Assembly: GCA_027603945.1 (NCBI GenBank)
Contig: JADIIU010000010.1
Location: 124,001-188,000 of the forward strand
Direction of reading: 5' to 3'
Length of the DNA: 64,000 bases
DNA from: Terramyces sp. JEL0728
Lineage: Eukaryota > Chytridiomycota > Chytridiomycetes > Rhizophydiales > Terramycetaceae
The translations under genes and the position numbers were made by a program. Numbering within the stretch: the first letter of the stretch is position 1; each line of letters opens with the position of its first letter. A model generated the notes under the pieces. The model searched no databases. It was not told the origin of the DNA and saw only the letters and a program-made list of their open reading frames with translations. Shown piece after piece: positions 1,452 to 63,681 of the stretch.

Positions 1452-2751
1452 ATGCCTAGCAACGCAACGACTCCAATGAAAAGACCAGTAAAACTATTGG
1501 AAGAGTTTGGAATCGACCCTCAGACTGGCTTTCTTCCAAACCCGCCTCCAGTTAAACAACTCCCAAAATATTATCAACCGTGGGAATTTATTATCGATAA
1601 TTTAAATGCATTTCTAGTATCTGGAGCAATCAGGGATAGGGTTAGAAAAGTATACATTTATTAATGAAGCTTGAAAAGCTATCGGTGGAATATTTATCAG
1701 GAGTAGTGGAACAGCGTAGAGCTTACTGCATGCTCTCATTTATTGCGCATGCATATATTTACGGAGTTGCAAATGCAGACACTGTTGACCCCGTTTTACC
1801 AGAAAGTATCGCCGTCCCTTGGTTTGAAATTGCAAAGATCTTGCAAGTTAAGCCTGTGGGTTCATACGCAAGCGTAGGGCTATGGAATTGGTACTTGTTA
1901 GATCAAAATGGCCCAAAGGATCTTGGGTATGTTTCAACTAATGTAGTAATCTGTCCATTATGAACACCTTCAGCGGTTCGTTTGATGAATCGTGGTTCTA
2001 TCTAGTTCCACTGGCAATTGAAGTAGTTGGTGCCCCATTTATATCCGCAGCTATAGATGCTCAGAATGCTATTACTGCAAAAGATGAACAAAATGTCCTA
2101 AAAAATGTTGTAATTATGGCGGATGCCATCAGCGAAATGACGGAATTGGTACCAAGAATGTATGAAAAATGTGACCCGCAAGTATTTCTGGCTAGAGTCA
2201 GACTATATAGTGGTGGATCAAAAAATAATTCTCTGATGCCCAACGGCGTGTTTTTTACTGGAGTTACAGAGGTAGCCATTTTCTTACAATAGATGGATCA
2301 ACATGTTAATTTAGACCATCCAAATCCAGGAGGATTGGTTGGAACTTGGAGAAAATACGCTGGTGCATCTGCTGGTCAATCACCATTGATCCACACGATT
2401 GATGCTGCACTGTCAATTCAGCATTTGCCAATGAAGCAAGGTGCCCCAGTGAATCCAATGCAGGAAATGATTGAAGCGCTCCCCTTGGATTTGCAGGATT
2501 TTATTCAAATAGTCAGGGAAGGTCCATCAATCAGAGAATTTTGCCTTGGCTCTCTTGATGAACGGTTGCGGCAAGAATTTAACAGAACTCTAACTAATTT
2601 AAAACTGTTTAGAGACAAGCATATGCAGTTGGCTACCAGATATATTGTCATCCACAAGAAAGACCCTGCTGCGGTTGGTACTGGCGGTACCGACCTTGTA
2701 CCATTCTTGAAGCAAGTCAGACAAGAAACTATGGATACTAGCATTCCTTGA
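1452..2751 (+). CDS. BNA2: Indoleamine 2,3-dioxygenase
   Basis: Haem dioxygenase that opens the indole ring of tryptophan to N-formylkynurenine, the first step of kynurenine and de novo NAD synthesis. Exons 1452-1649, 1670-1926, 1947-2271 and 2293-2751 join to 412 residues, the normal family length; introns are 20, 20 and 21 nt. Family landmarks are PWFEIAKILQVKP near residue 120, HPNPGGLVGTWRKYAGASAG (the GAS-A-Q substrate-pocket motif), the proximal haem histidine in KHMQLATRYIVIH, and GTGGTDLVPFLKQVRQET near the C-terminus. The start could also be the ATG at 1479. The stop is followed by an AATAAA-like stretch. Identification is secure. Confidence 0.93.
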
Positions 2752-2947
2752 ATATTAATAATAAATAAGCGGAAAAATTATTAATTCCAAGTTCGAAGCT
2801 GGACGAATGAAGGCAGATTTAAAGCTTCTACCAGCAGATAGTGTGTCTGCGATATTCCAGCTCTTCTATATCGCTATAATATCGGGAGCACCGTAAGTCA
2901 CATGGTTTGCAAAGAGGTTAAATACCAAGAAAAAACAAGTAAAATAA

Positions 2948-3861
2948 ATGTCACTAAAAGGAAAAACAATCTTCATCACGGGTGCTTCAAGAGGTATCGG
3001 TTTAGAAATAGCTTTACGTGCGGCCAAAGATGGTGCTAATATTGCAATTGCAGCGAAAACTGCCGATCCAAACCCAAAATTACCTGGAACAATCTATTCT
3101 GCTGCAAAGGAAATTGAAAAAGCCGGAGGAAAAGCACTACCTGTTCAGTGTGACATCAGATTTGAAGACCAAATTCAAGCAGCTATCAAACAAACCGCTG
3201 AAAAATTCGGTGGGATTGATATTGTTATAAACAACGCATCTGCAATTTCGTTGACCGATACTGAAAGCACCGACGTTAAAAGATACGACTTGATGAATCA
3301 AATTAATGGCAGAGGAACATGGGTGACATCAAAACTTGCGCTGCCTTACTTGAAAGAATCTGCTAAAAAGGGAAGAAATCCTCACATCTTGGTTTTATGT
3401 CCTCCTCCAGATCTTAGCCAGCACTGGTTTGCCCCTCATGTTGCTTATACTATGGCAAAATACGCAATGTCGTTGTGTGTCCTTGGGTTATCTGGGGAGC
3501 TCGAATCTGACGGTATTGCAGTTAATGGTTTGTGGCCAAAAACTGCAATTGATACTTCTGCCATGAGAAATGTGATTGGTACTTGGAATTAATACTAGAT
3601 CAAGGAGGGCTTTCCAAGAATCGCACAGCAGCAATTATGGCAGACGCAGCCTACGTTATTCTCAACCAGCCAGGAACCTCATACACTGGCCAATTTGCTA
3701 TCGATGAAACTGTCTTGAGGTTGCAAGGAGTGACTGACTTTGACAGGTACAAAGTAGACAAAAATTGCAAAGAAGAAGATATTACCCTCGACTACTTTTT
3801 ACCTCCAAACATCTTCCACAACGCTCAGGTGCCTTTGAAGCAAGTGCTAGCAAAGCTTTAA
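2948..3861 (+). CDS. Short-chain dehydrogenase, HSDL2-like
   Basis: A 297-residue short-chain dehydrogenase/reductase from exons 2948-3578 and 3599-3861 (20-nt intron). TGASRGIGLEIA (residues 11-22) binds NAD(P); NNAS is present, and YTMAK supplies the catalytic Tyr and Lys. The long loop with PNPKLPGTIYSAAKEIEKAG and the tail TSYTGQFAIDETVLR match the HSDL2/peroxisomal SDR group, usually associated with peroxisomes or mitochondria. The sterol-carrier (SCP2) tail of animal HSDL2 is absent and no C-terminal peroxisome signal is obvious (it ends LAKL). The substrate cannot be deduced. Its stop lies 14 bp from the stop of the opposite-strand hydrolase. Confidence 0.85.
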
Positions 3862-3875
3862 TATAATCGGGTTTA

Positions 3876-11353: not shown

Positions 11354-12343
11354 TTATATTATGGATTTACTTGGTTTACTAACAGATTCCCGGATACTCT
11401 CTTCTTTCCAACTAGCCTCCTTTTCCTTTTGATTCCCTCCCAAAGTACCATCGCGCATGCCACTTTCTCGAAATCCACTTTCTCGCATTGAGCCGCTCTC
11501 CAGCTCAATATCAATGGCTTTCCTTCTCTTCATCTTTGTTCCCTTCCCCTTCTTCAGCGCGTGATTGACTTTTTCCATTACCGTTGCGAGCGATGAATAG
11601 ACCTGGCACAATATTGCAAAATGTATCCCGACTAGCCCTGCAGCTATCTGATCATACATCATTGCTTGTACAGCTACTGTTATTTTGGAGTTACTGTCAT
11701 AAATGAAAAATTCGGCATATGCAAAAATGCATAATGCTATCCATTCCACAAAACTAAAAAAGAACATGTAGTATCGCAAACGCAATATTCCTCGTACCTC
11801 CGCATCCATCAGTTTTTTCCGCTTCTTCATTATGGCTACAGCTATCAGCATGCCTATCGCCGATCCAGATATCACAACAGACATGATCCAAACCATCCCT
11901 ATGATGTTGTAAATCTAGAGTGAGATTTGAATTACTAAATATATTATACTCATCAGCGTAATTTTATAACAAATGTAAACAATGTTTGTTAATGCAAACA
12001 TGATGAAATTAACATCACGCACAAGGTTGATTTTGGATTCTGTGAATATTGGATTCAGCACGTTGTGGAAATCCAGAAATTTCAAATTCAGAAACGCAAT
12101 AGCTTGGATGTTGCAGGTATTTACAAATACCGAAATGAAATTAGTTTTCGAAATCATATCTTGGTTCTGTATTTTTAGCAGTGGTACTCTTATCAGTACA
12201 TCTACGAGTATTGGAAATGTGAAGGCTGCAATGTACAAATTAATTCGTTTTGATCTGTAATTATGTGAAATAAATAAACTGGCAGTGGCGATTGCAGTGA
12301 ATAAGTTGATGAATTCTATTGTATAAGTGATCTCCTGCAGCAT
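11354..12343 (-). CDS. Seven-helix membrane protein, tandem family copy 1
   Basis: First of four tandem paralogues. Exons 12343-11936 and 11914-11354 (21-nt intron) give about 322 residues; a second intron at 11674-11694, at the position used by copy 2, would shorten this to 315. It starts MLQEITYTIEFINLFT and contains about seven hydrophobic helices, then a basic, Ser/Glu-rich C-terminal tail (KKGKGTKMKRRKA, SMRESGFRESGMRDG) probably in the cytosol. The topology resembles a small receptor-like seven-transmembrane protein, but I see no known GPCR motif. It is the most diverged copy, with a longer tail. Confidence 0.75.
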
Positions 12344-12404
12344 ATTTTGAAACTGTCAAAAAAACGTCATTGCAATTGACGTATGTCGTCTAAGGGAATT
12401 TTTA

Positions 12405-13303
12405 TTAGTTAACTACAGAAGCTGATATAGCATCGTCTTCATCGTGCGCTCTTGATATGTCGGGTATTTGGTCTTGGTCTCCTTCGAAATGTTTCTTTCT
12501 CTTCATGTTCATTTGCGATTTTTTCCTTTCCTCTTTGATCTTCATAGTCACCATATATGTATAATAAAACACATGGCTTAAAAGGGCAAAGTGGATACCT
12601 GCAACTGCAGTAGCAATAATATTGTAGGACAAGGCTTGGAATCCTGAGTTAAATCTCCTTACTATCATTTTGGGCAATTTCGTAAACATATATTGCCACC
12701 CCTATCCAATCCATTACACTCAGAGCCAGCAGCAAGTATTTGACGCGTATTAATCCATGTAACGATTTATTTCTTGTTCGCTTTTGCGCTTTAGATATAA
12801 CAACAGGGATATAAAAGCCAATCGCTACTCCTGATATCAAAACCCCGACAATCCACAGTCCAACTAAACCCAGATACATCTATTTTAATCTCAATTACCC
12901 AGTACACCGTATCATCCAGCCAGATTCTGGTGGCAAAATATAGGCAATTGATAATCGCCGATATAACCATATTGATGGTGACTACATGGGAAACATTGAA
13001 TTTCGGTGCCAGATTAAATACAGTGAATAAATGAAAAGTGTAAAAATTTAGAAACATTACTGATTGGATTATTGTGGTGGTTAGTATACTGGATAATAAA
13101 TCTTGAAAAAACATTAATTTTTCTACTCTGAAATTTAGTATTGGTATCCTGATGGTGGAATCCAGAATGGCTGGAATACAGAGTAATGAGACCGTGGTAA
13201 TGCGAGGTTTGCAGCGATAGTCATGAGATAAAAATACGCTTATTGTGAACAGCGATATCAGTATATTTAATGAAGCTGATATGTACGTTATTTCAAAATT
13301 CAT
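12405..13303 (-). CDS. Seven-helix membrane protein, tandem family copy 2
   Basis: Exons 13303-12899, 12879-12663 and 12643-12405 (two 19-nt introns) give 286 residues. It starts MNFEITYISASLNILI; shared blocks with its neighbours are FLSHDYRCKP, FTVFNLAPKFNVS, GVLISGVAIGFYIPVVISKA, LIRVKYLLLALSVMDWIG and AVAGIHFALLSHVFYYTY. The tail MKIKEERKKSQMNMKRKK followed by acidic residues is conserved in copies 3 and 4. Its second intron is not a multiple of three and contains a stop in frame, so it must be spliced; this fixes the intron position for the family. Confidence 0.8.
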
Positions 13304-13381
13304 GAAGATTATGTCATAAAAATATTATGCGTCAGGGTATGGATTTATTAGAATTTGGTTGATTGTAGCCGGATTTCTCTG

Positions 13382-14289
13382 CTATTTAGCCAATGAAAGT
13401 GAAGCGGTTTCGTCTTCTTCATGCGCGCTGGGTTCATCTGCGAGCGCATCTTGATCATTACTTGCGGTTTTCCTTCTTTTGATATTAATTTGCGACTTTT
13501 TTCTTTCTTCCTTGATTTTGCTGGTTACCAAGTAGGTATAGTGATACACGTGGGTCAGGATTGTAAAGTGCAATCCTGCAACCGATGTCGCAATGATATC
13601 GTACGGCAGTGCTTCCATTTCTGCATTAATTATATCTTTACTGTCGTCAATGTACAGCACTTCATATAGATATATGCCCACACCAAGCCAATCCATTACA
13701 CTCAGTGCCAACAGTGCGTATCGAACATGAATCAAGCCATGGAGCGTATTGTTTTTTGTCCGTTTCTGAGCTTTAGATATCACAACAGGAATGTAAAATC
13801 CAATTGCTGTTCCTGATATCAGCACACCGATAATCCATAGCCCAAGAACCACCAGGTACGCCTAAGTAAACACACAAGTACAAGATAAAAGGTATTGGGG
13901 TCTGCTGAAAATTTGCAAGGGAAGAATAAACAGTTGGCTACCAGAGAAATGCAAAAGTTGATTACAATCACTCGAGACACATTGAATTTTGGTGCCAAGT
14001 TGAAAACCGTGAATAAATGGAATGTTGCGAAATTTAAGAAACTAACAGCTTGAATAACTATAGTTACTATTACTGTAGAGTATAAATCTGCAAATAAAAA
14101 CATGTTTGTTGCTTTGTACGTTAAAATCGGCAATCTGCCAACTACATCGAGGATTGGCGGAATACAAAGTAGTGCGATTATTTTGCTTAGAGGTTTTGAG
14201 CGATAATTATTTGAAAGGAAAATGCTGACAGTGAGAATTGATGTGAACAAACTGACTGCTGTAACAACATAGGTAATCTCCGAAATCAT
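13382..14289 (-). CDS. Seven-helix membrane protein, tandem family copy 3
   Basis: Exons 14289-13882 and 13861-13382 with a 20-nt intron give 295 residues, or 288 if the 21-nt segment at 13621-13641 is removed as the homologous second intron. It starts MISEITYVVTAVSLFT and is the closest match to copy 2, with GVLISGTAIGFYIPVVISKA, SVMDWLGVGIYLYE, SVAGLHFTILTHVYHYTY and a KIKEERKKSQINIKRRK tail. The 21-nt segment has no stop and keeps frame, so both spliced and unspliced forms would be full-length. Confidence 0.8.
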
Positions 14290-14569
14290 AAGATTATGTC
14301 ACCCAAATTACGATTTTATAATCACAAATCGCCACCCACCTGTAATACATACGCGTTTGGCGCCGATTAATCTTTCAGGGAATGTAACCTTTTCAATATT
14401 CCCTCTCTAAGAGTTGAAACAGAATGGGATTTATGAAGCCATTCAGTATATGATGATTTCAATATGGTCCGCCGTAGTTTACCAATATTTACGTTATCTT
14501 TGCGGCTGGATTCATTAATACAGGAAATTCTTTAAATTATATTTCTTGTGTATTGTATGACAATGGAAT

Positions 14570-15480
14570 TTACAAATAATTTGGAACAGAGATTGAAGAA
14601 GTAGCATCATCCTCTTCATTGACTTTGGATTCATCACCAGTAATCTCCTGGTCGTTCGCCAAGCTTTTCTTCCGTTTGATATTCATTTGAGCTCGTTTTT
14701 TCTCTTCCTTGATATTGGAGGTGATCAGGTATGTGTAGTGATAAACATGGGCAAGTAGCGCAAAGTGCATTCCTGCAAACGCCGCGGAAGTTATATCGTA
14801 TGGCAACTTTTTCAATTCAGTTTGTTAGATCATTCTTACTATCTTTTACATAGACGACTTTGTAAAAATAGAACCCAAGCCCGACCAAATCAAATACCAG
14901 GAGCGATAGTAAGGCATATTTGACGTTAATGAGACCATGCAAGTTGCTCCTCGTCTTTTTTTGCGCTCTTGAAAGAACAACTGGGATATGCAGACTGATA
15001 GCTGTTGCAGAAACGAACGCTGACAGGATCCAAACACTGAGCACTCCGAGGTACGCCTAGGTTAATCCAGCTTACCAGGTACAATTGGTGGATATTCTGT
15101 ACCTTATAAGTTACATATATTGCAATTACTAGCAGGAACGCCAAAAAATTGCCAACTACAATCCAAGATAATTTGAATTTTGGAGCGAGTTTTAGTGCTG
15201 AAAATAATCCAAGCATGCTAAAATTGAGAAAGCTGACGGACTGAGCTGCTATTGTCGACAGGATCAGTGACAGTACATCGCTGAATGATATATAATCTTC
15301 ATCCCCAAAAGTCATTATTGGAATTCGAATCAAGACATCCAAAATAGCAGGCAAACACAGAATGGAGATTATTTTGCTTATTGGTTGAGATCTGTAATTA
15401 TGCGAAACGAATATGCTGATTGTAAATACTGAAAGAAAGAAGCTTGCTCCTGCAGTAATATATGTAATTTCCAGAATCAT
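14570..15480 (-). CDS. Seven-helix membrane protein, tandem family copy 4, odd last splice site
   Basis: Starts MILEITYITAGASFFL at 15480, matching the other copies. Exon 15480-15076, 19-nt intron, exon 15056-14840, then an intron whose frame-restoring end (14818) reads CTG instead of CAG, and a last exon 14817-14570 encoding KKLPYDITSAAFAGMHFALL and the conserved basic tail. Without removal of the 22-nt segment the protein stops after DSKNDLTN and loses helix 7. Either a GT-TG intron is used, or this copy is a recent pseudogene or truncated form. Confidence 0.65.
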
Positions 15481-15518
15481 GAAAATTATGTCACCTAATT
15501 TGAGCTGTAATTTGAATG

Positions 15519-16308
15519 GCATGGTAGATAAAACTGTGCTGCCCTTATCAAATCATTGCTGAGTATTCGTGATTTGGAATCGATTCAGGAGCATATATTT
15601 GGAATATACCAAAAACGCGAGACGGTATTTGTGTTACGATGATAAGAATGCTGGCGTATTTCTAGTTTCTATTTGTGGGAGTGATCGAATAAGGCTTGGA
15701 AGTTACAAGGATAATTGGCATGACAATTCACCTGAATATTTCGTTGATGAGCAACCTTAATCTTTTGCAGGATCAGCAATCTAAACAGGTGCAGCAAGAT
15801 TTGCTACAATCATAGCATAAACAATTCCCACTCGCCATGGTGCTTTTGCTAATCTCAGACCTTTATCTTCAAATCTTGTTGAGATACCAGAACAACCCTC
15901 GCAAGTTGGCTAATTGGTGGCAAAGGACGAGCAGGTGACGCTTTTGGTCCAATCTCCATTGCCGGATGTGTCTTCAACAGATATCCATCAGTTGCTTGCA
16001 ACTGTAATCGTCTGTAATTACACTGACGGAAGGGAACAGCTTCCTGATGGCGAATAGTGCCAAAACTTTTGCCGTTTCTTATCTATACTCAAAGCGGGTT
16101 TGGTTTCCAGAAATGTCAAAGCGCTGGTTGTAATTTTTCAAAGGGGCTGCAAACGATTTGACATTGAGCCACCTTTGGACAACGTTCGATTGTTCATGTG
16201 GTGTTTGAAGCTCAGATGATAGCCGAAGGGAAACCGGCAGAGCAGTAGCTCATATGATTGGAGATGGAATGCGCCAGGTATTGAATCAGTGCAATCGTGG
16301 AATTCTAT
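15519..16308 (+). pseudogene. Unresolved coding remnants, possible decayed gene
   Basis: Several stretches read like real protein but do not join into one frame. On the + strand 15519-15526 plus 15569-15630 and 15653 onward give MACIRDLESIQEHIFGIYQK then NAGVFLVSICGSDRIRLGSY, using introns of 42 and 22 nt. Later come DQQSKQVQQDLLQS, LSSNLVEIPEQPSQ joined by a possible 21-nt intron (15908-15928) to DEQVTLLVQSPLPDVSSTDI, and LVSRNVKALVVIFQRGCKRF. Stops and frame changes that no tiny intron removes separate them. No family was recognised. It may be a degraded gene or one with unusual splicing. Confidence 0.35.
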
Positions 16309-19972: not shown

Positions 19973-21112
19973 ATGGGAATCGAAACCACATTATCCATTC
20001 CCAGTACGCCAGGAAGCCTAAGGCAGAAACGTAAGAGCGCATCAGTCATCCCTCTGTTGCCACTATTCAATCAAGATGACCTTCCGGCTCAACAAACCCA
20101 GCAAGACAAATTTGTCATATCAACAGAAAGGTATTCGTTCGACGAAAGCCAACTAGAATTAGTCGCCAATATTGGCTCTGGGATTACATCTATGGTTTTT
20201 AAAGTGGTGCACAAACCCACAAAGACGATCATGGCCCAAAAGGTACAGCGTTATTGATTTTGGTTGTATTTATATTAATCAAAAGAGGTTCAGACTGCCT
20301 CCGACAAATGAAAATGAAAGCCAGAAGGAAATTGAATCTCAGATATTGCGGGAATTGTCGATTCTCCGCCTATGTCAATGCCCCAACATTGTTGGTTTCT
20401 ATGGGTCTTTTATGAGCGATAATACGGTGTCGATGATGCTGGAATACGCAGATTTAGGCTCGCTGGAGAGCATATATAATCGAACTGGACCTATTCCTGA
20501 ACGTGAAATCAGCGTGATTGCGTTCCAAACTTTGTCCGCTTTTATCTATCTGGAAGAGCACCATAAAATTGTCCACCGAGGTAATTTATGATAACAATTG
20601 ATATAAAGCCTGCCAATATTTTGCTGAATTCAGATGGCGTAATCAAACTTTCTGATTTTGGCGTTTCAAAGGAAACAATCAAATCAGCAGCTAAAACGTT
20701 CGTCGGCACGTTCTATTACCTGGCGGTACGTGTTTATCGTTAATAGATAGCCGGAAAGACTGCAGCAAGGACAGGAATCTACAGGGACTAGCGACGTATG
20801 GAGTTTTGGCTTGACTGTTATGGAAATAGCAATGGCTAGGTTCCCTTACCCTAAAGAACTACTCCAGAACCAATTTGACATGCTGCCGTATATTACTGAA
20901 GAGCCGAGCCCCACCCTACCGAAAGATACGTTCTCCCCCGCATTCGAAGATTTCTGTGCGCAGTGCTTGATTAAAGATCATGTACTCAGGCCAAATGCGT
21001 ACTCTCTGCTGGTATCAGATTGCTTATTTAGAATTCGGACTTTATCAAGAATTGCATTACTAACAATTATGATTTAAAAGACTGGATAAAAACCCTAAAT
21101 CTCCTCTCTTAA
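19973..21112 (+). CDS. MAP kinase kinase paralogue 1
   Basis: A 343-residue STE7/MEK-type dual-specificity kinase from exons 19973-20242, 20286-20580, 20601-20725, 20751-21011 and 21032-21112. It has [10 protein letters not shown] (a weak glycine loop), catalytic Lys in TIMAQK, Glu in ILRELSIL, the HRD-IKPAN loop (split by an intron after HRG), DFGVSKE and an activation segment S-AAK-T-FVGT like the S-MAN-S of MEKs, then APERLQ. The C-terminal [11 protein letters not shown] resembles MEK tails. The intron at 20581-20600 needed to restore HRD ends in TTG rather than AG, and the first intron is unusually long (43 nt). It could be a weakened or decaying copy. Confidence 0.82.
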
Positions 21113-21170
21113 TAAATGTATTTTTTGCAACATTGTCTCTTTTGCACCCAGGATCATTGTTTCCATTCCG

Positions 21171-22380
21171 ATGGGTGTATTTCGCAGACTGCAGAGAGAC
21201 GATAGAAATGAAAGTAAACCGGAAAAGAATGGATTATACAAAGATAATTTCCATTCGCTGGGAAATTTAATGGATCCGGCTGAGCTGTCAAAACTCCCAA
21301 AACGAATCAGCCAATCTATGGACTTGGAAATAAACACCTCCATGCAAAACCTTCAATTGCATCTGAGCAATGCGGATATCAGCAAAGATTCGCTGTTTGA
21401 ATTTGATGAAACGAAACTGAAATATATCTCGTCCATAGGAAACGGATCATTTGCAAGCGTGACTAAAGTATTGTACAAACCAAATGGCATGTTTATGGCA
21501 CGAAAAGATGTAATTATAAACGCATTGGATGGGGATACACTGGAGAAAACAGAAATGAATATCATGCGCGAACTTAATATCCTCAAACAATGTAATTGCC
21601 CGTACATCACTAGTTTTTACGGTGCGTTCCTGAATGGGCAGAAGATTTCAATGTTTCTAGAATACATGGATTTAGGATCTTTGGAGTATATTTATAGAGT
21701 TGCCGGACCAGTCCCAGAAAAACAAGTAAAAGTCATCGCAATACACATGTTGAAAGCCCTGGATTATTTTAACAAGAATGAAAAGATTGTACATAGGGGT
21801 GATTTGTTGCTTATATAGATATAAAGCCTGCAAATATTCTTCTTTGCTCAGACGGTATTGCAAAACTTGCTGATTTTGGGCTGTCCAAACAAACCCTGCT
21901 TTCGCCTGCAAAAAGCGTCGTCGGGACGCTAATCTACTTGGCAGTATCCGAATGTTTAACCTTAGCCGGAGCAAATGGTGCAGACGGAAAACAACAAAAA
22001 ATCTACGACAAAGTCTGATATTTGGAGTTTGGGGTTGGCACTGATGGAAATTACGTTGGCGAGGTTTCCTTACGAGACCGATTGGCTATACGAATCAGGT
22101 TCAAAAAGGAAATCCCTGTTTGATATTCTTCCAACGATAAAGAACGGCCCAGTGCCAACGCTGCCCAAGCAAGAATTCTCTCACGACTTTGTGAATTTCT
22201 GTTCTTCGTGTTTGACAAAGGACGAGTATGAGCGTCCATCAGCAAGCAAATTACTGGTATTTCATCTTAATTTAGCAAGATCCGTTTGTGAAATACCAAG
22301 GGAAAACTCCAGATTTAAAAGATTGGATAACGACTCTTCCGGCAATACTGCGAAAGAATACCAAAGTTATTAAATCTTAA
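21171..22380 (+). CDS. MAP kinase kinase paralogue 2
   Basis: 382 residues from exons 21171-21798, 21819-21943, 21966-22256 and 22276-22380 (introns 20, 22, 19 nt). The glycine loop GNGSFASVTK, the catalytic Lys in [26 protein letters not shown], the activation segment S-PAK-S-VVGT, APEQ and the tail DPFVKYQGKTPDLKDWI are all present, so the kinase looks active. Introns after HRG and before PE match paralogues 1 and 3. It would phosphorylate a MAPK on Thr and Tyr. It has the longest N-terminal extension (about 75 residues, basic), where a MAPK docking site would be expected. Confidence 0.88.
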
Positions 22381-22487
22381 TATTAATAAATCTTAATTTT
22401 TAATCTCGTTTGGAGCATTATGTGTTATCTCCACAAACAATAACATTTTTTTCATTTCTCTATCCATTATTTATTATCACAAAAACG

Positions 22488-23571
22488 ATGGGAGTGCAAG
22501 GGATAACAATTCCAACAACAGCTGCGATTCAATCACCAGTATTAGCCCGCAAGAGACTCGGAGTCCCCGCTCTGAAATCCTTAGGCTCTCTGTCAAATCT
22601 CAAACTGCCACAATCAGATCTCAATGAAAATAATATTAGAAAAGACTCGAAAATTAACTTTGTCAACGAAGATTTGACTTTTATCAGTAATTTGGGAGCC
22701 GGAGCTGGCGGTACAGTCAGCAAAGTGTTGCACAAACCAACCGCAATCATAATGGCTAGAAAAATATTAAAGTTGGCGCCAAATGATGAAAACCAAGAAA
22801 AGATTGAAAAACAGATTCTTCGTGAATTAAGAATATTACGCGTTGTACAGTCGCCGTACATTGTCGCTTTTTACGGTGCATTTTTACATGGAGACGAAAT
22901 CAATATCATGCTGGAATTTATGGACTTGGGAGCTCTAGACAGTATTTACAACAAAACCGGCCCGATACCGGAAATTGCAGTCTCAACCATTTGCTTTCAA
23001 ATACTATCCGGGCTGACTTATTTGTATGAAAACCACAAAATTGTACACAGAGGTTGGTAGTATCTCATACTAGATATAAAGCCAAGCAATATACTCGTGA
23101 GTTCGCAAGGATTAGCGAAAATTGCTGATTTTGGCGTTTCAAAAGAAACTGCTGAGACTATGGCAATGACGTTTATTGGTACACAGTGCTTCTTGGCAGT
23201 AATCAATATTTAAATGTAGCCTGAAAGAATAAGAGAAGGATCTCCATGCACTCCAGCTTCAGATGTATGGAGTGTGGGATTAGTCGCAATGGAAATTGCC
23301 TTGGCCAGATTCCCTTTCCCAAGTGAGGCAATGAAGACTTATTTTGACATGATGCAGTTCATTACACAGGAAAAAAGCCCTACGCTGCCAAAGAATATGT
23401 TTTCACCAGAGTTTGAAGATTTTTGCGGGTACTGCTTGATGAAGGATCCGCTACAGCGACCACATCCCAAACAGCTGTTGGTAAAATTATCTTTTATTCT
23501 AGGAAACTCCATTTCTACAAAGGGGTAGCACGTTTAATCTTAAAGAATGGACAGATTCATTAAAACAATAA
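22488..23571 (+). CDS. MAP kinase kinase paralogue 3
   Basis: 339 residues from exons 22488-23052, 23074-23198, 23220-23480 and 23503-23571 (introns 21, 21, 22 nt). It has the glycine loop GAGAGGTVSK, IIMARK, IVHRDIKPSNILV, DFGVSKE, the activation segment T-MAM-T-FIGT (both phospho-acceptors are Thr rather than Ser) and APERIREG. Like its neighbours it starts MG. Its N-terminal ARKRLGVPALKSLGSLSNLK is basic and hydrophobic, as in MAPK docking motifs. Its stop codon ends 2 bp from the stop codon of the convergent Pth2 gene. Confidence 0.88.
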
Positions 23572-25346: not shown

Positions 25347-26382
25347 TTATTTTAATTGATTCAAGCTGCAAAGCTTGGCTACCAAGGAGCTAATCTGAAG
25401 TAGGGAATGGCACCCTTCTAATAATCTGATATGGCACATTCCAATTTCCTAAAATTAAACAGGATTACTTTGATGTATTCTAATCGCAAGAATTCAGGCA
25501 TCTCAATGGCTTTGGTGACTTTGAACAGCGTGGTTACAATATCGACGGCAGAGTAACCTTTAGCCCACAAAGCTTCTAACAGCGAAAGAGCATCCTCCAC
25601 TTTGCACTCAATACATGACTTGATAATTGTCTGTACCGCAACTGGATGCGGCTGATCGCATACTTTGTATACATTTTCAGGCGAGACAAAACCGAATCCA
25701 GAATGTGTAGATTGAAGATTGTTAACTGCTTGTCTCATATCTCCTTCAGCAGTAAACACAATTGCTTCTAGACCTTCATTCGTGTAGTTGACCTCGTATT
25801 AAACAAACCAACCTTTTCACAGTCACAAATTTGAACGAGTCTGGTGAGAATTTGTAAATCAGCAAGTCGTGTATATCTCAGAATTGCACATCTACTCTGA
25901 ATTGGCTCAATAATCTTGGTAGATAAATTGCATGCCAGTGCAAATCTGGTTGTGCTTGAATAGATCTCCATTGTTCTTCGCATTGCTTGCTGGGCAGCCG
26001 TAGTCATAGAGTCTGCTTCGTCCAAAATAACAATTTTGTGCTTTCCAGCAGGTAGAGTAACCTTTTTCTGCGCAAACATCTTGATTCGATTTCTAACAAT
26101 ATCTATCCCTCTTTCATCTGATGCGTTCATTTCCAATACAGCTTCCTTGTAGTTGTCACCCAATAATTCATGAGCTAGACACAAGATACTAGTGGTTTTA
26201 CCGATACCTGGTGCTCCTGAAATAATCAAGTTGGGCATATTTCCATCTTTCGCAATAACTGACAGACGCTGCACAGTTTCTTCATTCCCAACGATATCGT
26301 GCAATAATTTTGGTCTGTACTTTTCAATCCTTTGTTTAATCTGAATTTACCATGGTAGTTCTTGAGATGGGTTGCCTTGCAT
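25347..26382 (-). CDS. Replication factor C small subunit (human RFC2 / yeast Rfc4 type)
   Basis: Subunit of the clamp loader that opens PCNA during DNA replication and repair. Exons 26382-26351, 26329-25813, 25792-25469 and 25448-25347 (introns 21, 20, 20 nt) give 324 residues. [13 protein letters not shown] starts it (its Trp codon is split by the first intron), then the Walker [19 protein letters not shown], Walker [10 protein letters not shown], the SRC motif ([10 protein letters not shown]), [15 protein letters not shown] and the C-terminal collar [38 protein letters not shown] matches the RFC2 subgroup. The Nudix gene starts 26 bp away on the other strand. Confidence 0.94.
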
Positions 26383-27380: not shown

Positions 27381-29060
27381 ATGTGCGGAATTGCAGGATG
27401 TTTTTTAGCAGACACCAATATCAGCTGTAATTCAGAAATATACGAAGCTTTAGGGTTGTTGCAGCATAGGGGTCAAGTACAGAAATTTTAATTGAAGGAT
27501 GCAGCTGGAATAGTTACCTGTGGCCAGCGTGGACGGTTATATCAATGCAAAGCCAACGGTATGGTTAGAGATGTATTCCCGCCTTCTCAATTGACGCAAT
27601 TATTGGGTTCAATGGGAGTTGGACATGGTAACTTTTGAATTGATTTAGTGCGTTATCCAACAGCCGGAACTTCCTCTACCTCTGAAGCACAGCCATTCTA
27701 TGTCAACAGTCCGTATGGTTTAATTTGTGCCCATGTATATTTTTGTTAATCCAGAATGGTAACTTGACCAACACTCCTGTACTTAAAAAGTACCTCGATG
27801 AAGTTGCTCATAGACATGTCAATACTGAATCAGACTCGGAGGTGTTGCTCAATGTATTCGCTGATCACTTGCAACAAACAGGAAAATCAAGGTAAGCCAA
27901 TACCAACATTAGAATCAACGAGGATGATATTTTCAATGCTTTAACCAAATTGTTCGACATGTGCTTGGGAGGATACGCTTGCATTTTAATGATTGCCGGT
28001 TTTGGCATACTTGGGTTCAGAGTAAGTTTCATTAATTACAGGATCCCCATGGATTGCGACCGCTTATTTATGGATCTAGAAAGACTGAATTTGGGACCGA
28101 CTACATGATGGCATCTGAAAGCGTAGTGTTGGAATCACTGGGATATTCCGATTTTATTGATGTTGCACCTGGACAAGGGGTTATGATAACCAAAGACGGC
28201 GTTTCAGTCAGACAGTGCGCAAAAGCAAAAGAGTTTACCCCTTGTATTTTCGAATACGTTTACTTTGCAAGACCTGATTCGATCATGGATGGGATTTCTG
28301 TTTACAAGTCACGTTTGGCAATGGGTGAAGCTTTGGCAACCCAGGTAATCAAAGATTTGGGTGAAGAAAATGATATCGATGTGGTTATTCCAGTGCCAGA
28401 TACAAGTAGAACTGCTGCTCTGCAAGTGTCTTATAAATTAAACAAACTTTATCGTGAAGGATTCATCAAAAATAGATACATTGGACGCACATTTATCATG
28501 CCTGGCCAAACCCAGCGTATCAAATCTGTCCGCAGAAAGTTGAATCCGATGCCTATGGAATTTGCAGGAAAGAATGTACTGCTTGTGGATGGTATTTGCT
28601 ATTTGACGTTAGATTCTATTGTGAGAGGTACTACTTCGCGTGAAATAATCCTGATGGCTAGAGAGGCTGGTGCTAAAAAGGTGTATTTCGCTTCTTGTGC
28701 ACCTGCCATTAGGTACCCAAATGTCTACGGTATCGATATGCCTACCAGACAAGAACTAATTGCTTACAACCGCAACACTGAGCAAATCGCACAGGAAATT
28801 GGCGCTGATAGAATCATATTTCAAGTAAAAGTAACTAATAACAGGATTTGGAAAATCTGGTACAATCTGTTGCAAAGTTTAATCCAGAAATCACAAAGTT
28901 TGATGTATCTGTATTCACGGGTTGCTATGTCACTGGGGATATTGACGAAGCTTACCTCAGATCTCTTGAAAAACAAAGATCGTTATCAATGCAGAATCTT
29001 CGCATTCCTACATCCGATGATGTAATGGGACTGTTCAACAACTTTAACGGGAGAAAATAA
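27381..29060 (+). CDS. ADE4: Amidophosphoribosyltransferase
   Basis: First committed enzyme of purine synthesis: transfers glutamine ammonia to PRPP. Eight exons (27381-27476, 27498-27626, 27648-27734, 27755-27891, 27913-28021, 28042-28591, 28613-28824, 28845-29060) join to 511 residues, the family length; all seven introns are 20 or 21 nt. Met is followed directly by the catalytic Cys (MCGIAG). HRGQDAAGIVT, GHVRYPTAG, NGNLTN and DPHGLRPL belong to the glutaminase half. [23 protein letters not shown] and the PRPP loop [14 protein letters not shown] (split by an intron after VD) belong to the transferase half. A textbook case for the tiny-intron pattern. Confidence 0.96.
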
Positions 29061-31112: not shown

Positions 31113-33196
31113 TTAATTTAGGTAGAACCCGCAATTTCTGTTTGCAAGGGCGAGCAAAAGCCTGTCCTTGAGCTTTTCTTTTGAAGAATACTCGCAAAGT
31201 AAAAGGGCATTAAAGCAGGTGTGAGATGTAGGCAGCCTGTCACTGTCTGTGCCATTTCTAGCAATTACAAACTAGAATTAGAACAATATACCTGCAACTT
31301 TCCCAATCCCCCGACAGGCACTCTATCCGACCCAGTAGTGAAAACAAGGAATTGTTTCTTTTGCTCATCAGTAAAGTCTTGTACGATTTCCCAAAAGTAT
31401 TTTATAACCAGAGTGTCGGCTTCATAGCCATCGTACACGGCTGATTCTTGAAGTGCTTTAAAATCTAGAGACGGGCTTCCACAAATTAATTCTTGCAGTT
31501 CCTCTGCTCTGAATAGGGTTATCGCAGAGCCATTCATTACAGAATTAAACCCTTGCTGGAAGGCACTAAATATATCGTCGACGCTCGTATTAAAAAAGTA
31601 TTCCAAATATTGTGCTACATATTCTAAATCAAAAGCCATGTACCTTCTCTATTGGCATTCGTTACCATAATTTCTGAGCCGTTATTCACCAAATCTACTG
31701 ATACTCGTTTCCCCAATACTGTCACCATATCAATTGAAAATGTTCTTGCGAAATCTTGTTCCACATCTCCTTCATAATCTAGCAGCTGGTTCAGCCCTTT
31801 TCCTAGTGCTGGATCCCATTCAGTTAAATCAGCAAGTTGGACCGAACTGTTCACGAGTTTTTTGTAAACAGCCGATGCAAAGTTAATGTCGAGAGCAACT
31901 CCGTTATAAAATGCCAACCCAATTAGTTTTCCCAGCAGGTTGTATTCTGCCAAAGTTTCTTCATCTAAACCTCCATCCCAATAGCCAAACCAACTAGTTC
32001 TTGAATCGTCATTTGTTACAAACATTCCATAGGTAGAGCTGAACATTTCTTTGGATATCAGCTGAAAGAATTCTAAGTCAGCGTCAAGTACCTTTTTGTA
32101 TCCCGCCTTCATCAATGCCGTCTTCACCAAGAAAAGACACACGTAGCTGCTTTTTCAGGTCATGATTGGTTTTTCCTTCCAACTGATAAAGCGTGTCTCT
32201 GATGATATTGGTTCTTCTTAGTTCAAGTTGCAGATATGGATTATTTACTCCGATAAACATGGCCCTGAAGAATGAATCCTGCAATTCATGACGCATCTGT
32301 ATCATGCTTTCAATACGCAAAATATCTCCTTTAGTTGCTGTGCTCAACAAGAACGAATAATTGCAAAACGAGAATCCATCGTGAACCTTCCATTTTGGAT
32401 AATCTTCTTTTAAATCAAGGGATTCCTCGACTGTTTCATTGTATAATTCGTAATAAGGTATAAAATTATTGGTCTCGTTGATAGCGGCTAAATTAATATT
32501 GGGAACCTAGAATGGACAATGTTTGAACCACATTAATAACCTTCTCGTCGGGATCGGTACCTGCTTCGGAATTGAGGATTTGGATTGTAAGATATTGCTG
32601 GAACAGCTGAATTATCTGTTTGAAGAACTGCGATTTTTCAATAGAAGTGTTCCCGCTATGCTGTATTGATTCTTGCAAAATAAAAGCAAAGCCAAACTTG
32701 TCGGTCTGATTGAATTTAGCCAACAGTTGACAGAGTTTTGGCAGTACGGTCATGCTGGTATCTGGGTCTTGTAAAATCGGCAGAATCATCACTATGACAA
32801 AACACAGATAGTCATCCTTTCCAATTTCCTGCACGCCATTTTGGATATGGTCCAGCAACGTATTAACACCGTTCATTATTGCCAACTCATTTTCAAATGT
32901 GACGATTTCTTGAAACCATTTCAGGAATTCTCCAAGATGGATAACGTAGCTATCTAGAGTCTACTGTCAGTCGCGCTTACATTGTCAAATTGAGCGAATG
33001 CGGCAATGATATTCTTTGTATTTGAAAATATATCGTAAAGCAACACTTTGACATTTTCCTGCCCATTTGATTGCATTAAATCTTTGATTTTTGCTTTATA
33101 ATTTCCTTTCATATCGCCATGCAGCTGTAGTTTCTTCAAATCCAAAGCTGCTTGGTTTGCTGCGTTTGTATCGTCGGCCCCTAGTGTATTTGACAT
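31113..33196 (-). CDS. HECT-domain E3 ubiquitin ligase
   Basis: 661 residues from exons 33196-32981, 32960-32507, 32487-32092, 32072-31644, 31623-31292 and 31271-31113 (introns 19-20 nt). The C-terminal half is a HECT domain: [48 protein letters not shown] and the active-site Cys about 628 in [14 protein letters not shown]. It forms a thioester with ubiquitin before transfer. The N-terminal 250 residues are helical without WW, C2 or RCC repeats, similar in layout to the Hul4/HECTD2/UBE3A group. The substrate is unknown. It shares a 64-bp divergent promoter with PAN3. Confidence 0.9.
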
Positions 33197-39758: not shown

Positions 39759-40842
39759 ATGTTCACATTGAAACGTGCTTTCTCATCCTCAATCGCTGCT
39801 GTAATTCATTCATTAATCAATAGCAAAAGAAAGTTGCAGTCCTCGGTGCTGCTGGTGGTATTGGACAGCCATTATCTTTATTAATGAAATTAAATCCTCA
39901 TGTAACCGAATTATCATTATATGACATTGTAAACACCCCTGGAGTTGGAGCTGATCTCTCTCACATTAACACCAACTCAACTGTTGTTGGATACAAAAAA
40001 GATCAATTACACGAAGCTTTGGCAGATGCAGATGTTGTTATTATCCCAGGTAAGTGACGAATGCTTTGTTATTCATTACCATTAGAGCAAATTAACAGTA
40101 GCCGGTGTGCCAAGAAAGCCAGGTATGACTAGAGATGACTTGTTCAACGTCAATGCTGGAATCGTCAAGAACTTGGCAGAAGTTTCCGCAAAAGCATGCC
40201 CAAATGCAAACTTTTTAATCATTTCCAACCCAGTAAACTCTACTGTTCCAATCTTTGCAGAAGTATTAAAGAAACACGGAGTATTTAACCCAAAGCGCTT
40301 GTTTGGTGTAACCACCCTTGATGTTGTTCGTGCTTCCACCTTTGTCTCTTCGGTTAAAGGAAAGAAGACTGAAGATGTAAACGTGCACGTTATTGGTGGA
40401 CATTCCGGAGTCACCATCGTTCCATTATTGTCACAAACCGGATTGACTTTCAACAAGGAACAAACTGATGCTCTCACTCACCGTATCCAATTTGGTGGTG
40501 ACGAAGTTGTCAAAGCTAAAGATGGTACTGGATCTGCAACTCTTTCCATGGCACAAGGTATTGGTCAGCCTAATTTTAGCTGGTGCAAGGTTTGCCGCAT
40601 CCTTGTTGAAGGCTTTGAATGGTGAAAAGGGAATTGTTGAACCATCATATGTTTTCTCCCCAGTTGCAACCAAGGATGGTGTTGAATACTTCTCCACCAA
40701 CGTTGAACTTGGACAAGAAGGTGTTGCCAAGATCCACCCGATTGGCCCTGTTAATGCTTTCGAAGAAGGATTAATCGCTGCTGCTCTCCCTGAATTAAAG
40801 AAGAACATTAAGAAGGGTGTTGATTTCGTTGCAAACAACTAA
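39759..40842 (+). CDS. Malate dehydrogenase, mitochondrial
   Basis: NAD-dependent TCA-cycle enzyme. Exons 39759-39800, 39824-40049, 40102-40557 and 40580-40842 give 328 residues; introns are 23, 52 and 22 nt, the 52-nt one being the longest I placed with confidence. [14 protein letters not shown] is a mitochondrial presequence and is exactly exon 1. [20 protein letters not shown] binds [23 protein letters not shown] is the mobile loop with substrate arginines, [11 protein letters not shown] and the catalytic His region VIGGHSG follow. The second intron is supported because it must be removed to give [11 protein letters not shown]. Confidence 0.95.
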
Positions 40843-48458: not shown

Positions 48459-49744
48459 TTAAACTCTTTCAAGGATAACGGCGATACCTTGTCCACCGCC
48501 AATACATGCAGATCCCAAACCGTATTTTCCACCAGTACGTTGCAATTCGTAGGTAATATGAGATAGAATACGCGCACCAGAGGCACCAAGTGGGTGACCC
48601 AAAGCAATAGCACCACCGTTGACGTTGAGCTTGGCCAAGTCAATGTTGAGTTCTTTAGCTACCGAAATCACCTGGGCAGCAAATGCTTCATTGATTTCAA
48701 TGATATCCATATCCTTGATAGAAAGACCGCTGCGCTTCATCACTCCGTTAATTGCAGGAACTGGGCCAATACCCATGATAGATGGCTCGCAACCAACATA
48801 ATACCAGTCGACAATCCTTGCTAATGGCTTGATGCTGTGTTGCTTGACAGCTTCTTCGCTGGCAACGATTAAACTGGCTGCACCATCGCAAATACCTGAT
48901 GCGTTACTATAGTTAAACATGCGATTTACCCTGCAGTAACTAGCCCAGTATCTTTGATGAAAACTGGTTTCAATTTGGACAAGGAGGCCATATCAGTTTG
49001 AGGGCGTGGGTGTTCATCGACTTCAAAATGTTCAACTCCTTTTCTGGTTTTGATTTCAACTGGTGCGATTTCACTCTTGAATAGTCCAGCGCTGTTGGCT
49101 TTGTCAAGTATAAAATACCTTTTCCCCAACGGGCTTGACTGCTTGCTGCGTATTCATCAACAGTTTTGCGATCTAATCCATATAACTTTCCAAGGTTTTC
49201 TGCAGTGATACCCATAGGTACTTTGTGTGGGAAAGTATCTGTTAACCCGTGCGCTAACGAATCTTCCAATTTCAAATCAACCCCATATCTAGCAGCAGTT
49301 CGTGCCCCTCTTAATACATGTGGAGCTTGCGACATGGATTCAGTGCCACCAGCCAAAACAACATTAGCTTCTCCAGTAAGAATTTCTTGGGCTGCATTGA
49401 TAACAGCTTGGAATCCGGAACCACAAAGTCTGTTGATAGTTAATCCAGGAGTGTCGATCGCCAATCCAGCTCGTAATCCAACATGTCTTGCCATGAAAGC
49501 TGCATCTGGGGATAAATTTTAGATTACCTGCAGAGGTTCCAATGACATTACCGTAGATTGTTGAATCAACTTTAACGCCTTCTGGCAATTGTTTGATTGC
49601 AGCTGTGGAAGCAAGTCCACCTAATTCAGTAGCATTAAGGTGAGCTAGTTTTCCTCCGAATGCACCAAATGGCTATATGTTAGTTAATGATCCTACAGTT
49701 CTTTTTGCGGCAACGATATAAATATTCTTTCCAAGGCGAGACAT
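48459..49744 (-). CDS. 3-ketoacyl-CoA thiolase, ACAA2-like
   Basis: Thiolase of fatty-acid beta-oxidation or acetoacetyl-CoA metabolism, 398 residues, from exons 49744-49697, 49672-49528, 49505-49119, 49098-48930 and 48906-48459 (introns 24, 22, 20, 23 nt). VAAKRTPFGAFGGKL opens it; the nucleophile Cys is in INRLCGSGFQAV; the general-base His in GGAIALGHPLGASG; the second Cys in GSACIGGGQGIAVI. NVIGTSADAAFMARHVGLRA, GGTESMSQAPHVLRG and DPSIMGIGPVPAI-like SCEPSIMGIGPVPAI match mitochondrial ACAA2. No obvious presequence, as in animal ACAA2, where the N-terminus itself is the uncleaved signal. Confidence 0.93.
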
Positions 49745-50083
49745 TGTTTTGATGAGGAAGTTACTTTTTGATTTTTCACCCACCTGACTTTGTTCACACA
49801 TGGGTCCATAAAGTCTGGAACATTTCGAAACATTAAGTTGTACTACTTTGCGTTTTTGCGCAAATTGGTAGTCCGTGTAGGTAGCTTGTGTTTAAATCCC
49901 GGGATTATGCCACCTGTATTTTCATGATGCGTAAGGCTACAGCATTTGAATTGAGTAAATTATAAACCTGCTTTATTGAAGGCGACTTTGATAATACCTG
50001 TTTTATTGAAAGTGACTTTGATAATACCTGCTTTATTGAAGGCGACTTTGATAATACGCGTTTTTCTTTTCGGAAGCAACAAA
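49745..50083. other. Divergent promoter region with 30-nt repeat
   Basis: About 340 bp between the thiolase and SNARE start codons. The only clear structure is the three-unit repeat at 49967-50056. The minus-strand frame through it (VLSKSPSIKQ units) is not considered a gene. Confidence 0.5.
49967..50056. repeat. 30-nt tandem repeat just upstream of the SNARE gene
   Basis: Three 30-nt units at 49967-49996, 49997-50026 and 50027-50056, starting CCTGCTTTATTGAAGGCGAC and ending TTTGATAATA; unit 2 differs at two positions. It ends 27 bp before the SNARE start codon, so it sits where a promoter or 5' leader must be. Confidence 0.93.
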
Positions 50084-61173: not shown

Positions 61174-61218
61174 TTCTACCCATGAAGCAAACTTTTTTTT
61201 GGGGAATATAACCGATAT

Positions 61219-62157: not shown

Positions 62158-62173
62158 AAAACAGATTCGAAAA

Positions 62174-62804
62174 ATGTATACGTTGCTGCACGGCTTTTAT
62201 CAACAATACACACAAAAGGAACAGTTTTTTGTAATTATATTGGGACTGGACAACGCAGGGAAAACCACTCTCTTGGAGCGTATTAAATTTATATACAACA
62301 AACAGAAACCGCAGCAGCAAATCGCACCAACTGTAGGGTTGAATGTAGGCAAAGTAAACGTACATTCGTGTAGGATAAATTTTTGGGATTTGGGAGGCCA
62401 AAAGCAGCTACAGAGTATTTGGGAAAAGTACTATCACGAATGCCATGCAATCATGTTTGTAGTTGATTCTACCGACAGAGAGCGTATCGAAGAATGTAAA
62501 ACCACACTAGGTACTCGTAGCTAATGTAGAAAAAGTAATCAATAACAACATCGTTGAAGGGGTTCCTGTGTTGATGCTGGCAAACAAACAGGATGTAAAA
62601 GGAGCTTTGAAATTGCAAGAAATCCAAGAGATATTTAATCAAATTGCAGTTGCATTGGAGGCTAGGGATAGCAAAGTGCTGTGCGTATCTGCGCTCAACG
62701 GGTAAATATCTGCTAATTGCAGTGATGGTGTCAAGGAAGCAGTGGAATGGATGTACACCAGGCTACAACGAAACAAGCAAGAGAAGCCACCTGTTTATAT
62801 ATAA
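62174..62804 (+). CDS. ARFRP1/Arl3-type small GTPase
   Basis: A Golgi GTPase that recruits Arl1 and golgins, 196 residues from exons 62174-62510, 62530-62701 and 62723-62804 (introns 19 and 21 nt). It has the P-loop GLDNAGKTTL, the switch region IAPTVGLNVG, WDLGGQK, guanine-binding NKQD and CVSALNG. The N-terminus MYTLLHGFYQQYTQKEQFFV lacks Gly2, so it is acetylated rather than myristoylated, as known for this group; the Tyr at position 2 matches ARFRP1. Its start is about 16-28 bp from the divergent ZNRD2-like gene. Confidence 0.93.
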
Positions 62805-62833
62805 TAAATTCAATCTAATGGAAATTAAATTTA

Positions 62834-63681
62834 TTATGAACTGGCCAATCCAAAGATATTTCCACAATATAGATCGTCATCAATTAAATCTTCGAAAAAC
62901 ACCTGCTTCATCTTGAAAAATGTGAGCGCCGTCAGCAAACTGTCACTGCCAGCCTGATGTTGGGGCCCTATTCTTGGAATCTAACGTTAGCGAAGAGCAC
63001 CTGCAGATCATCAGCAACATCTTGCAATCCGCCACGTAGGGTTTTACAGCTCTTCATCATGTATTTAATATCGTAGATACAAGGAAAGTACAATTTCAAA
63101 TATTCAAAGAATTCATTTTCGTCTGCTGGCAAAGGCAAGCAAGTGGATAATTTCAGCAAATACCCAAAGTCGTAGCCACTAGATTGAGATGCCAGTTACC
63201 TGTGAAACGACAGCCATTTAATTTCAGGAGATAAAACCAATCCTGAACTGATCAAAAGCTCTCCGAAATGTTCGACATCTATTCCATATTCCTCGTGCTT
63301 CTTGAAATCAATCCCGCTCTTTGTTAGCAATTCTATAGAATTCTGCGCATACATATCGTCATTAAGATTAAACTGAAAGTTGAATTGCCATGTATACACT
63401 CCTTCTGGCAACTCGCCAAACTGATTTGAAAACGTTAATCCGAGCTGAATAATCTTGAGCAAGTCTACATTGCATCGTAATGTTTGAAAATGGTAATCTG
63501 CAGAATTCCTGAAATTGCCAATTGGTCTTGCAACTACCCCAGGAAATTCTGTATCCTATGGTTATTCAAAAAGAACCATTGCAACATATGGATATTTATC
63601 AACTATTAGTCTTATCTTATGCATCTCTTGTTCTAGATTTGAAGCCCACACATCAACAAATCTCCCTTCATCCGCTGACAT
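62834..63681 (-). CDS. CAF1/CNOT7 deadenylase of the CCR4-NOT complex
   Basis: DEDD-family 3' exonuclease removing poly(A) from mRNA. Exons 63681-63577, 63555-63200, 63178-63001 and 62980-62834 (introns 21, 21, 20 nt) give 261 residues. MSADEGRFVDVWASNLEQEM leads into VAMDTEFPGVVARPIG (the first catalytic Asp and Glu), then YTWQFNFQFNL, GYDFGYLLKL (third acid) and HQAGSDSLLTALTFFKM (fourth acid). The window thus encodes parts of both deadenylase complexes, with PAN3 at 33.3 kb. Confidence 0.94.

Follow-up and report, generated by a model that had tools for sequence, protein, structure and literature searches.

Tiny introns are known from heterotrichs (15–16 nucleotides, nt), mikrocytids (16–17 nt) and a nucleomorph (18–21 nt), as summarised in PMC10245619. 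The window analysed here, a 64,000-base stretch of the genome of Terramyces sp. JEL0728 (Chytridiomycota, Rhizophydiales, Terramycetaceae in the NCBI taxonomy), lies on the 202,660-base contig C10 (G000:C10:124001-188000) of an assembly of 15,016,339 bases in 231 contigs, and most introns of its genes are 19–21 nt long. Judged from DNA sequence, the U2-type spliceosomal introns of this fungus have very probably been reduced, genome-wide, to a steric floor. The kind of intron is already known, and the fungal instance appears to be new within the literature searched: no fungal genome with tiny introns was found in searches of open-licence literature.

Stentor coeruleus (15–16 nt) shares with Terramyces the genome-wide occurrence of tiny GT-AG introns, and U2AF1 and U2AF2 are listed as present in this ciliate. 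Its branch A is mostly base 10 or 11 with 3 nt between A and AG, compared with 3–4 nt in Terramyces, and its commonest intron, GUAAUUUUUAUAUAG, is without G at +5, as in Terramyces. The Stentor introns are, however, 3–6 nt shorter and have no strong branch consensus, whereas those of the fungus show a clear YTRAY (PMC9505925 for all Stentor data given here). Mikrocytids resemble Terramyces in the narrow size class and the conserved sequence of their introns, but they are parasites whose spliceosome is strongly reduced, and for M. mackini 224 introns are predicted (PMC10245619); the intron density in the Terramyces sample is about 1.8 per kb of coding sequence. The length range of the Bigelowiella natans nucleomorph (18–21 nt) is nearly identical, yet there the introns, slightly over 800 in number, belong to the relict nucleus of an endosymbiont and not to the nucleus of a fungus (PMC10245619, PMC5014332). 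In Paramecium, as in Terramyces, introns of triplet length often hold in-frame stops (the Terramyces figure, 52 of 58, is biased upward), but the Paramecium introns are longer, with a mode of 25 nt, and the lineage is another (PMC5014332). In Yarrowia lipolytica the branch motif and the AG are likewise nearly fused, without a pyrimidine tract (PMC2911113, PMC2483917); the gap between motif and AG is given as 2 nt (PMC2483917) or as a mean of 1 nt between the motifs (PMC2911113), compared with 2–3 nt in Terramyces, whereas the Yarrowia introns are longer and are called rather long (PMC2483917).

Intron lengths were determined in a 264 kb sample of the 15.0 Mb genome, consisting of the window and, from each of contigs 1–20, a single 10-kb stretch. 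We used a custom gene finder in which GT-AG introns of every length from 12 nt upwards carried equal cost (flat length prior), with upper limits of 250 nt in a first run on the window, 300 nt in the run that called 353 introns, and 120 nt in the decoy runs and the later runs without splice-site models. In the window, a peak at 19–21 nt was seen already with the flat prior and without a splice-site model. Over the whole sample, the finder without splice-site models called 107 introns of 19–21 nt for GT-AG ends, and no such peak for decoy dinucleotide pairs (8 calls for CT-AC, 19 for TG-GA, 15 for GA-TG, 14 for AG-GT, 10 for TG-AG, 10 for GT-GA and 5 for CA-TC). Calls of 31–120 nt numbered 106 for GT-AG and 159–181 for the decoys; as GT-AG yielded fewer of them than any decoy, most long calls were taken as noise. 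With trained splice-site models and no length preference, 226 of 353 called introns measured 19–21 nt (64 at 19 nt, 107 at 20 nt and 55 at 21 nt), the remainder being spread over 12–295 nt; 22 nt accounted for 14 of these, and no other length for more than five. Introns of 19–21 nt were present in all 20 added stretches (2–16 per stretch). Throughout the sample, introns much shorter than 30 nt form a narrow size class, besides a few of 43–52 nt.

A pattern scan of the window for GTA(A/T)...YTRAY...AG revealed 53 segments of 19–21 nt, where 20 first-order Markov simulations led one to expect about 15 (19 nt, 15 against 5.2; 20 nt, 24 against 5.4; 21 nt, 14 against 4.7), and 8 against 4.4 at 22 nt. 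Other lengths lay mostly near expectation and a few at about twice the expected number (16 nt, 7 against 3.1; 67 nt, 11 against 5.5). A further model, which favours short introns by design, placed 111 introns in 53 gene models of the window: 19 of 19 nt, 45 of 20 nt, 34 of 21 nt, 7 of 22 nt, 2 of 23 nt and one each of 24, 25, 17 and 16 nt, the last two calls being doubtful. Because of this built-in preference, the proof of length lies in the flat-prior runs and in homology rather than in the count of 111. A preliminary description, made from the letters of the window, had reported about 110 introns of mostly 19–22 nt. This observation is confirmed, and the length distribution, for which a centre well above 30 nt had been named as the contrary outcome, peaks at 19–21 nt instead. 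Under the same short-intron model, introns make up 3.1% of the 264 kb sample. Their density of 1.83 per kb of coding sequence is roughly half of the 3.93 per kb reported as the mean for two chytrids by another method (PMC8476143).

The architecture was examined in the 249 introns of 17–24 nt from the 264 kb sample, window included. A typical intron consists of GTA, a short U-rich spacer, the branch motif YTRAY, 2–3 nt and (T/C)AG, and removal between GT and AG restores the reading frame in gene models and against homologues. YTAAY predominates among the branch motifs (TTAAT in 64, TTAAC in 46, CTAAT in 34 and CTAAC in 20 introns); the motif is able to pair with GUAGUA of U2, the U2 gene carrying GUGUAGUAUCUGUUC. 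Its A is base 14 or 15, being preceded by 13 nt in 108 and by 14 nt in 99 introns, and the last G of the intron stands 5 nt (117 introns) or 6 nt (95 introns) after it, which results in lengths of 19, 20 and 21 nt. The four combinations of these spacings account for 60, 51, 43 and 43 introns, together 197 of 249, and neither spacing depends on the other (chi-square p 0.67); the same four lead when no splice-site model is used (26, 24, 19 and 19, or 88 of the 133 introns with a motif among 142). Both spacings have sharp floors, with one intron having 12 nt before the A and seven having 4 nt after it.

GTA opens 90% of the tiny introns of the sample. Position +4 is A in 51%, T in 24% and C in 19%, position +5 is T in 52% and G in 16% (41 of 249, equal to background), and position +6 is T in 62%. 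Between +7 and the branch, T amounts to 39%, compared with 27% in coding sequence and about 31% over the whole window. The 3–4 nt that separate the branch A from the AG cannot accommodate a pyrimidine tract, which is also absent in accepted U2-type introns of Yarrowia, Trichomonas and Giardia (PMC2483917). Cryptic intron copies in exons gave one sense and six antisense matches, a weak test because the matches are too few and partly circular, as the model can call sense matches introns. Much of the preliminary description holds for this larger set, namely a branch site of the TTAAT/CTAAC type, a branch A nearly touching the acceptor and the lack of a pyrimidine tract. Of the proposed GTA(A/T) start, the GTA stands, whereas the C found at +4 means that A or T is not exclusive there; the branch pentamer, said to end 4–7 nt before the AG, ends closer to it, at 2–3 nt.

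Comparison with homologous proteins supports the removal of these segments: in six genes, encoding PurF, a replication factor C (RFC) subunit, a thiolase, CAF1, a HECT ligase and U2AF2, 24 of 26 tiny-intron junctions are ungapped. The features concerned, in window coordinates, are as follows for the first five genes.

27339-29060, plus strand: PurF amidophosphoribosyltransferase gene, seven introns of 20–21 nt; junctions ungapped in 117–119 of 119 homologues and also in the PDB alignment
27477..27497, plus strand: PurF intron 1, 21 nt; no gap within about 5 residues in 117 of 119 homologues
27628..27648, plus strand: PurF intron 2, 21 nt; 117 of 119 ungapped
27735..27754, plus strand: PurF intron 3, 20 nt; 117 of 119 ungapped
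27892..27912, plus strand: PurF intron 4, 21 nt; 119 of 119 ungapped
28022..28041, plus strand: PurF intron 5, 20 nt; 118 of 119 ungapped
28592..28612, plus strand: PurF intron 6, 21 nt, in frame and free of stops; 117 of 119 ungapped after removal
28825..28844, plus strand: PurF intron 7, 20 nt; 118 of 119 ungapped
31113-33226 (intron feature 31272..33226), minus strand: HECT ubiquitin ligase gene, five introns of 19–20 nt
32961-32980, 32488-32506, 32073-32091, 31624-31643 and 31272-31291, minus strand: HECT introns; four of five junctions ungapped in 93–98 of 99 proteins
25449..26382, minus strand: replication factor C small subunit, introns 26330-26350, 25793-25812 and 25449-25468 (21, 20 and 20 nt)
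48907..49801, minus strand: 3-ketoacyl-CoA thiolase, introns 49673-49696, 49506-49527, 49099-49118 and 48907-48929 (24, 22, 20 and 23 nt)
62981..63681, minus strand: CAF1/CNOT7 deadenylase, introns 63556-63576, 63179-63199 and 62981-63000 (21, 21 and 20 nt)

The sixth PurF intron shows that even a stop-free triplet-length intron can be backed by homology. The first HECT junction falls into a variable region and is ungapped in 35 of the 99 proteins, which include the deposited model of Terramyces itself; for this ligase the top protein match (99%) comes from Terramyces sp. JEL0728. All three RFC junctions lie within a single ungapped alignment to RFC subunit 2 (residues 7–319), as do all three CAF1 junctions within one alignment covering residues 6–260. 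The four thiolase junctions are ungapped against PDB chains; at the fourth, the top match has a one-residue gap 5–6 residues away and the second match has none. For U2AF2, three of four junctions are ungapped, the first lying outside the aligned part and the last being judged from aligned ranges of equal length.

Two families of tandem paralogues share introns at homologous positions, as judged by eye from flanking sequence.

11915-11935, 12880-12898, 13862-13881 and 15057-15075, minus strand: intron I of tandem membrane-protein paralogues (21, 19, 20 and 19 nt), the last assigned by its downstream exon sequence; introns of these paralogues span 11674..15522
11674-11694, 12644-12662 and 13621-13641, minus strand: intron II of the same paralogues (21, 19 and 21 nt)
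21799-21818 and 23053-23073, plus strand: intron I of MAP2K-like tandem paralogues (20726..23502; 20 and 21 nt)
20726-20750, 21944-21965 and 23199-23219, plus strand: intron II of the MAP2K-like paralogues (25, 22 and 21 nt)
21012-21031, 22257-22275 and 23481-23502, plus strand: intron III of the MAP2K-like paralogues (20, 19 and 22 nt)

At all five homologous positions the intron length differs by a non-multiple of three in at least one pair of paralogues. As the flanking frames are open in all paralogue models, at least some copies do not allow read-through of these segments. Drawn from sequence comparison, this length test is the nearest equivalent to RNA evidence. The single member of the putative membrane-protein cluster (window 11354-15522) that was scanned had no Pfam match; by eye, we take the cluster to be 7TM-like, and the kinase genes are likewise presumed to be MAP2K-like by eye.

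Longer introns occur as well. The two exceptions named in the preliminary description both look real by reading frame.

20243..20285, plus strand: intron of a MAP2K-like kinase gene, 43 nt, 3' end TTAATCAAAAG; called at 43 nt without splice-site models
40050..40101, plus strand: malate dehydrogenase intron, 52 nt, donor GTAAGT, 3' end TTAACAGTAG; from the gene model

Removal of the 43-nt intron joins MAQK to RFRLPPT, which matches the tandem kinase paralogues by eye, and removal of the 52-nt intron restores a stretch of 20 residues of what we take, by its motif, to be malate dehydrogenase. By eye, the branch A precedes the last G by 7 nt in the 43-nt and by 6 nt in the 52-nt intron; the extra length is thus located in the 5' part, and the short 3' spacing is kept. 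The existence of both introns suggests that shortness is a tolerated minimum reached via deletion and not an obligatory length.

A genome search identified several components of the spliceosome. U2 snRNA was found at full length (140 bits) with a canonical branch-pairing region. Four exon matches to U2AF1 cover residues 3–194 of the human protein with 51–69% identity. The U2AF2 match scored 251.7 bits with four stops read through and gives 440 residues once spliced, comprising an RS-like N-terminus, a YWD motif, RRM1, RRM2 and UHM; the RRM and UHM parts match human chains, the N-terminal part matches S. pombe U2AF59, and the gene itself has four introns of 19–20 nt. For SF1, the SF1-HH domain was found together with matches over two further parts, presumably the KH and zinc-knuckle parts. 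The genome encodes U2, SF1, U2AF1 and U2AF2, all of them unremarkable as far as their sequences tell. The altered U2AF-type recognition proposed in the preliminary description is therefore not supported.

Several candidates for other components were rejected. Two pattern hits for U1 scored nothing for this RNA, and a second pattern gave one hit compared with 12 in the reversed control. A human U6 query gave nothing, and a first look revealed no U6 candidates; two pattern hits with two mismatches both had no intact ACAGAGA and were not taken as U6. U6 is expected to carry an AGC triad, which was absent from two covariance-model hits of 27.4 and 26.9 bits (cut-off 44). These weak hits contain ACAGAGA and sit in a repeat of at least 3.1 kb with two copies that are 99% identical (C199, C111). 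The human SPF45 query gave a single match, in a gene resembling RBM39 (a label assigned by eye), a search that cannot prove absence.

We propose that the major spliceosome removes the tiny introns. The branch would be read by SF1 and U2 and the adjacent AG by U2AF1, and U2AF2 would either use the U-rich stretch that precedes the branch or act mainly via protein contacts. Going by the intron sequences, the binding site of U2AF2 must differ from its usual place because only 3–4 nt are available between branch A and AG. Pairing of the 5' splice site would be largely limited to GUA(A/U), with +4 to +8 acting as a linker to the branch, which would account for the missing G at +5 and for the weak consensus over most of these positions. 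Were both GUA(A/U) and the branch pentamer paired, only about 6–7 bases would be left to connect them. For humans, 5' splice site and branch are stated to need a distance of about 50 nt, 35 nt abolished assembly on one substrate, and the geometry of the B complex implies about 52 nt (Keiper et al., PMC6692369). The layout of the human B complex could therefore not form unchanged where only 13–14 nt separate the 5' splice site from branch A. On structural grounds, the extended U6/5' splice site and U2/branch helices would be shortened or formed in sequence. Tentatively, one can speculate that the spliceosome assembles on the whole intron as a rigid unit of 20 nt, in which two spacings independently take one of two values each (13/14 and 5/6), that 5' splice-site pairing is reduced to GUA(A/U) with G at +5 abandoned, and that nothing like the human B stage is formed; we regard this as a real possibility rather than as an expectation. 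If true, it would be, as far as known, the first opisthokont case, convergent with heterotrich ciliates and with U2AF1 and U2AF2 retained. A fungus with SF1, U2AF1 and U2AF2 at a spacing of 13–14 nt provides an opisthokont system for questions on the B complex and on U2AF2 without a pyrimidine tract.

Any gene finder free to place GT-AG jumps makes some of them, and the off-peak calls of the 353-intron run look mostly like noise. That the tiny introns as a class are an artefact, i.e. coding sequence, sequencing indels or decaying genes joined by a permissive finder, is nevertheless extremely unlikely in view of the missing decoy peak, the continuity of homologues across the junctions and the non-triplet length differences between paralogues with open frames. 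In addition, 52 of 58 triplet-length introns in the sample would bring an in-frame stop if kept, compared with 113 of 191 others, although the first figure is inflated because stop-free triplet introns can be read as exon. Removal without a spliceosome, by DNA elimination, tRNA-type cutting or ribosome bypassing, could be considered as about 20 nt is below the usual minimum for the human spliceosome (about 50 nt from 5' splice site to branch; PMC6692369). It is hardly credible given the GT...AG ends with a U2-pairing branch motif at fixed spacing, the presence of SF1 and U2AF, the 3' signals shared with the longer introns and the spliceosomal introns of 15–21 nt known in other lineages (PMC10245619). 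Spliceosomal-type introns near the known lower length limit in a fungus, as put forward in the preliminary description, are thus a point on which signals and homology agree, and its interpretation as a whole is partly supported.

Within spliceosomal removal, 3' recognition might have been rebuilt so that U2AF2 is bypassed, as SPF45/RBM17 takes the place of U2AF where short human introns have truncated pyrimidine tracts (PMC8363638). The gap of 3–4 nt from branch A to AG, which leaves no room for the pyrimidine tract, would fit; conserved U2AF1 and U2AF2, and the SPF45 query that matched only the presumed RBM39-like gene, make this rather unlikely. Still less likely, in our opinion, is that length is actively measured and introns outside 19–21 nt are rejected. 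Splicing efficiency in the nucleomorph is reported to drop above 20 nt (PMC5014332), and two narrow, independent spacings would agree with measuring, but introns of 22–24, 43 and 52 nt exist.

Several points weigh against U2-type introns at a steric floor as set out above. Window introns no longer than 60 nt served as seeds for the splice-site models, and for this reason the run without site models, which gave the same pattern, carries more weight; the acceptor model spans the last 14 nt and could sharpen the branch positions. In SF1, counted apart from the six genes, one junction is ungapped, another adjoins a one-residue gap, and one predicted intron of 15 nt is doubtful. Paralogue introns have a mean DNA identity of 0.63, no lower than the 0.59 of flanking exons, a weak comparison because of shared splice signals and the gapped alignment of short segments. 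Upstream binding of U2AF2 would have only the mild U enrichment (39% T) to build on. The genome search called for in the preliminary description delivered U2AF1, U2AF2, SF1 and U2, whereas neither U1 nor U6 was found, in searches that had no positive control; the family search of the genome for U1 remained empty. Canonical pairing sequences of U1 and U6 are ACUUACCU and ACAGAGA. U1 and U6 may be missing from the assembly, which would leave the pairing partners of the odd donor unseen. A RED_N search for RED, also without a positive control, found nothing in the genome; like those for U1 and U6, this negative does not prove absence.

The tiny introns are implicit in public data, since the two deposited Terramyces models compared (HECT and PurF) agree with ours at 10 of 12 of them. 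The PurF model P0121 reads intron 28592-28612 as seven extra residues inside the PRPP loop. The HECT model P0001 agrees at four of five introns; at 32488-32506 it is without five residues and others are altered. Gene prediction can apparently damage proteins at such short introns, as both deposited models compared contain an error. Among relatives, the HECT model of Boothiomyces (P0002) is without residues 366–387 and that of Kappamyces (P0004) without residues 366–380, both losses beginning exactly at Terramyces junction 365.3 (intron 32073-32091). The Globomyces model (P0003) has no such gap, and a partial B. macroporosus model (P0011, 366 residues) has none before its end. A shared, mis-annotated short intron in Boothiomyces and Kappamyces would fit these alignments, which are suggestive only.

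Elsewhere in the window, a single protein at 45427-48082 combines a Core-2/I-branching enzyme domain with a nucleotide-diphospho-sugar transferase domain. A secreted-looking protein with a long (APTTTTA)n-like repeat is encoded at 9294-11215; we take two of its modules to resemble fungal cellulose-binding domains and its C-terminal stretch to resemble SCP/CAP.

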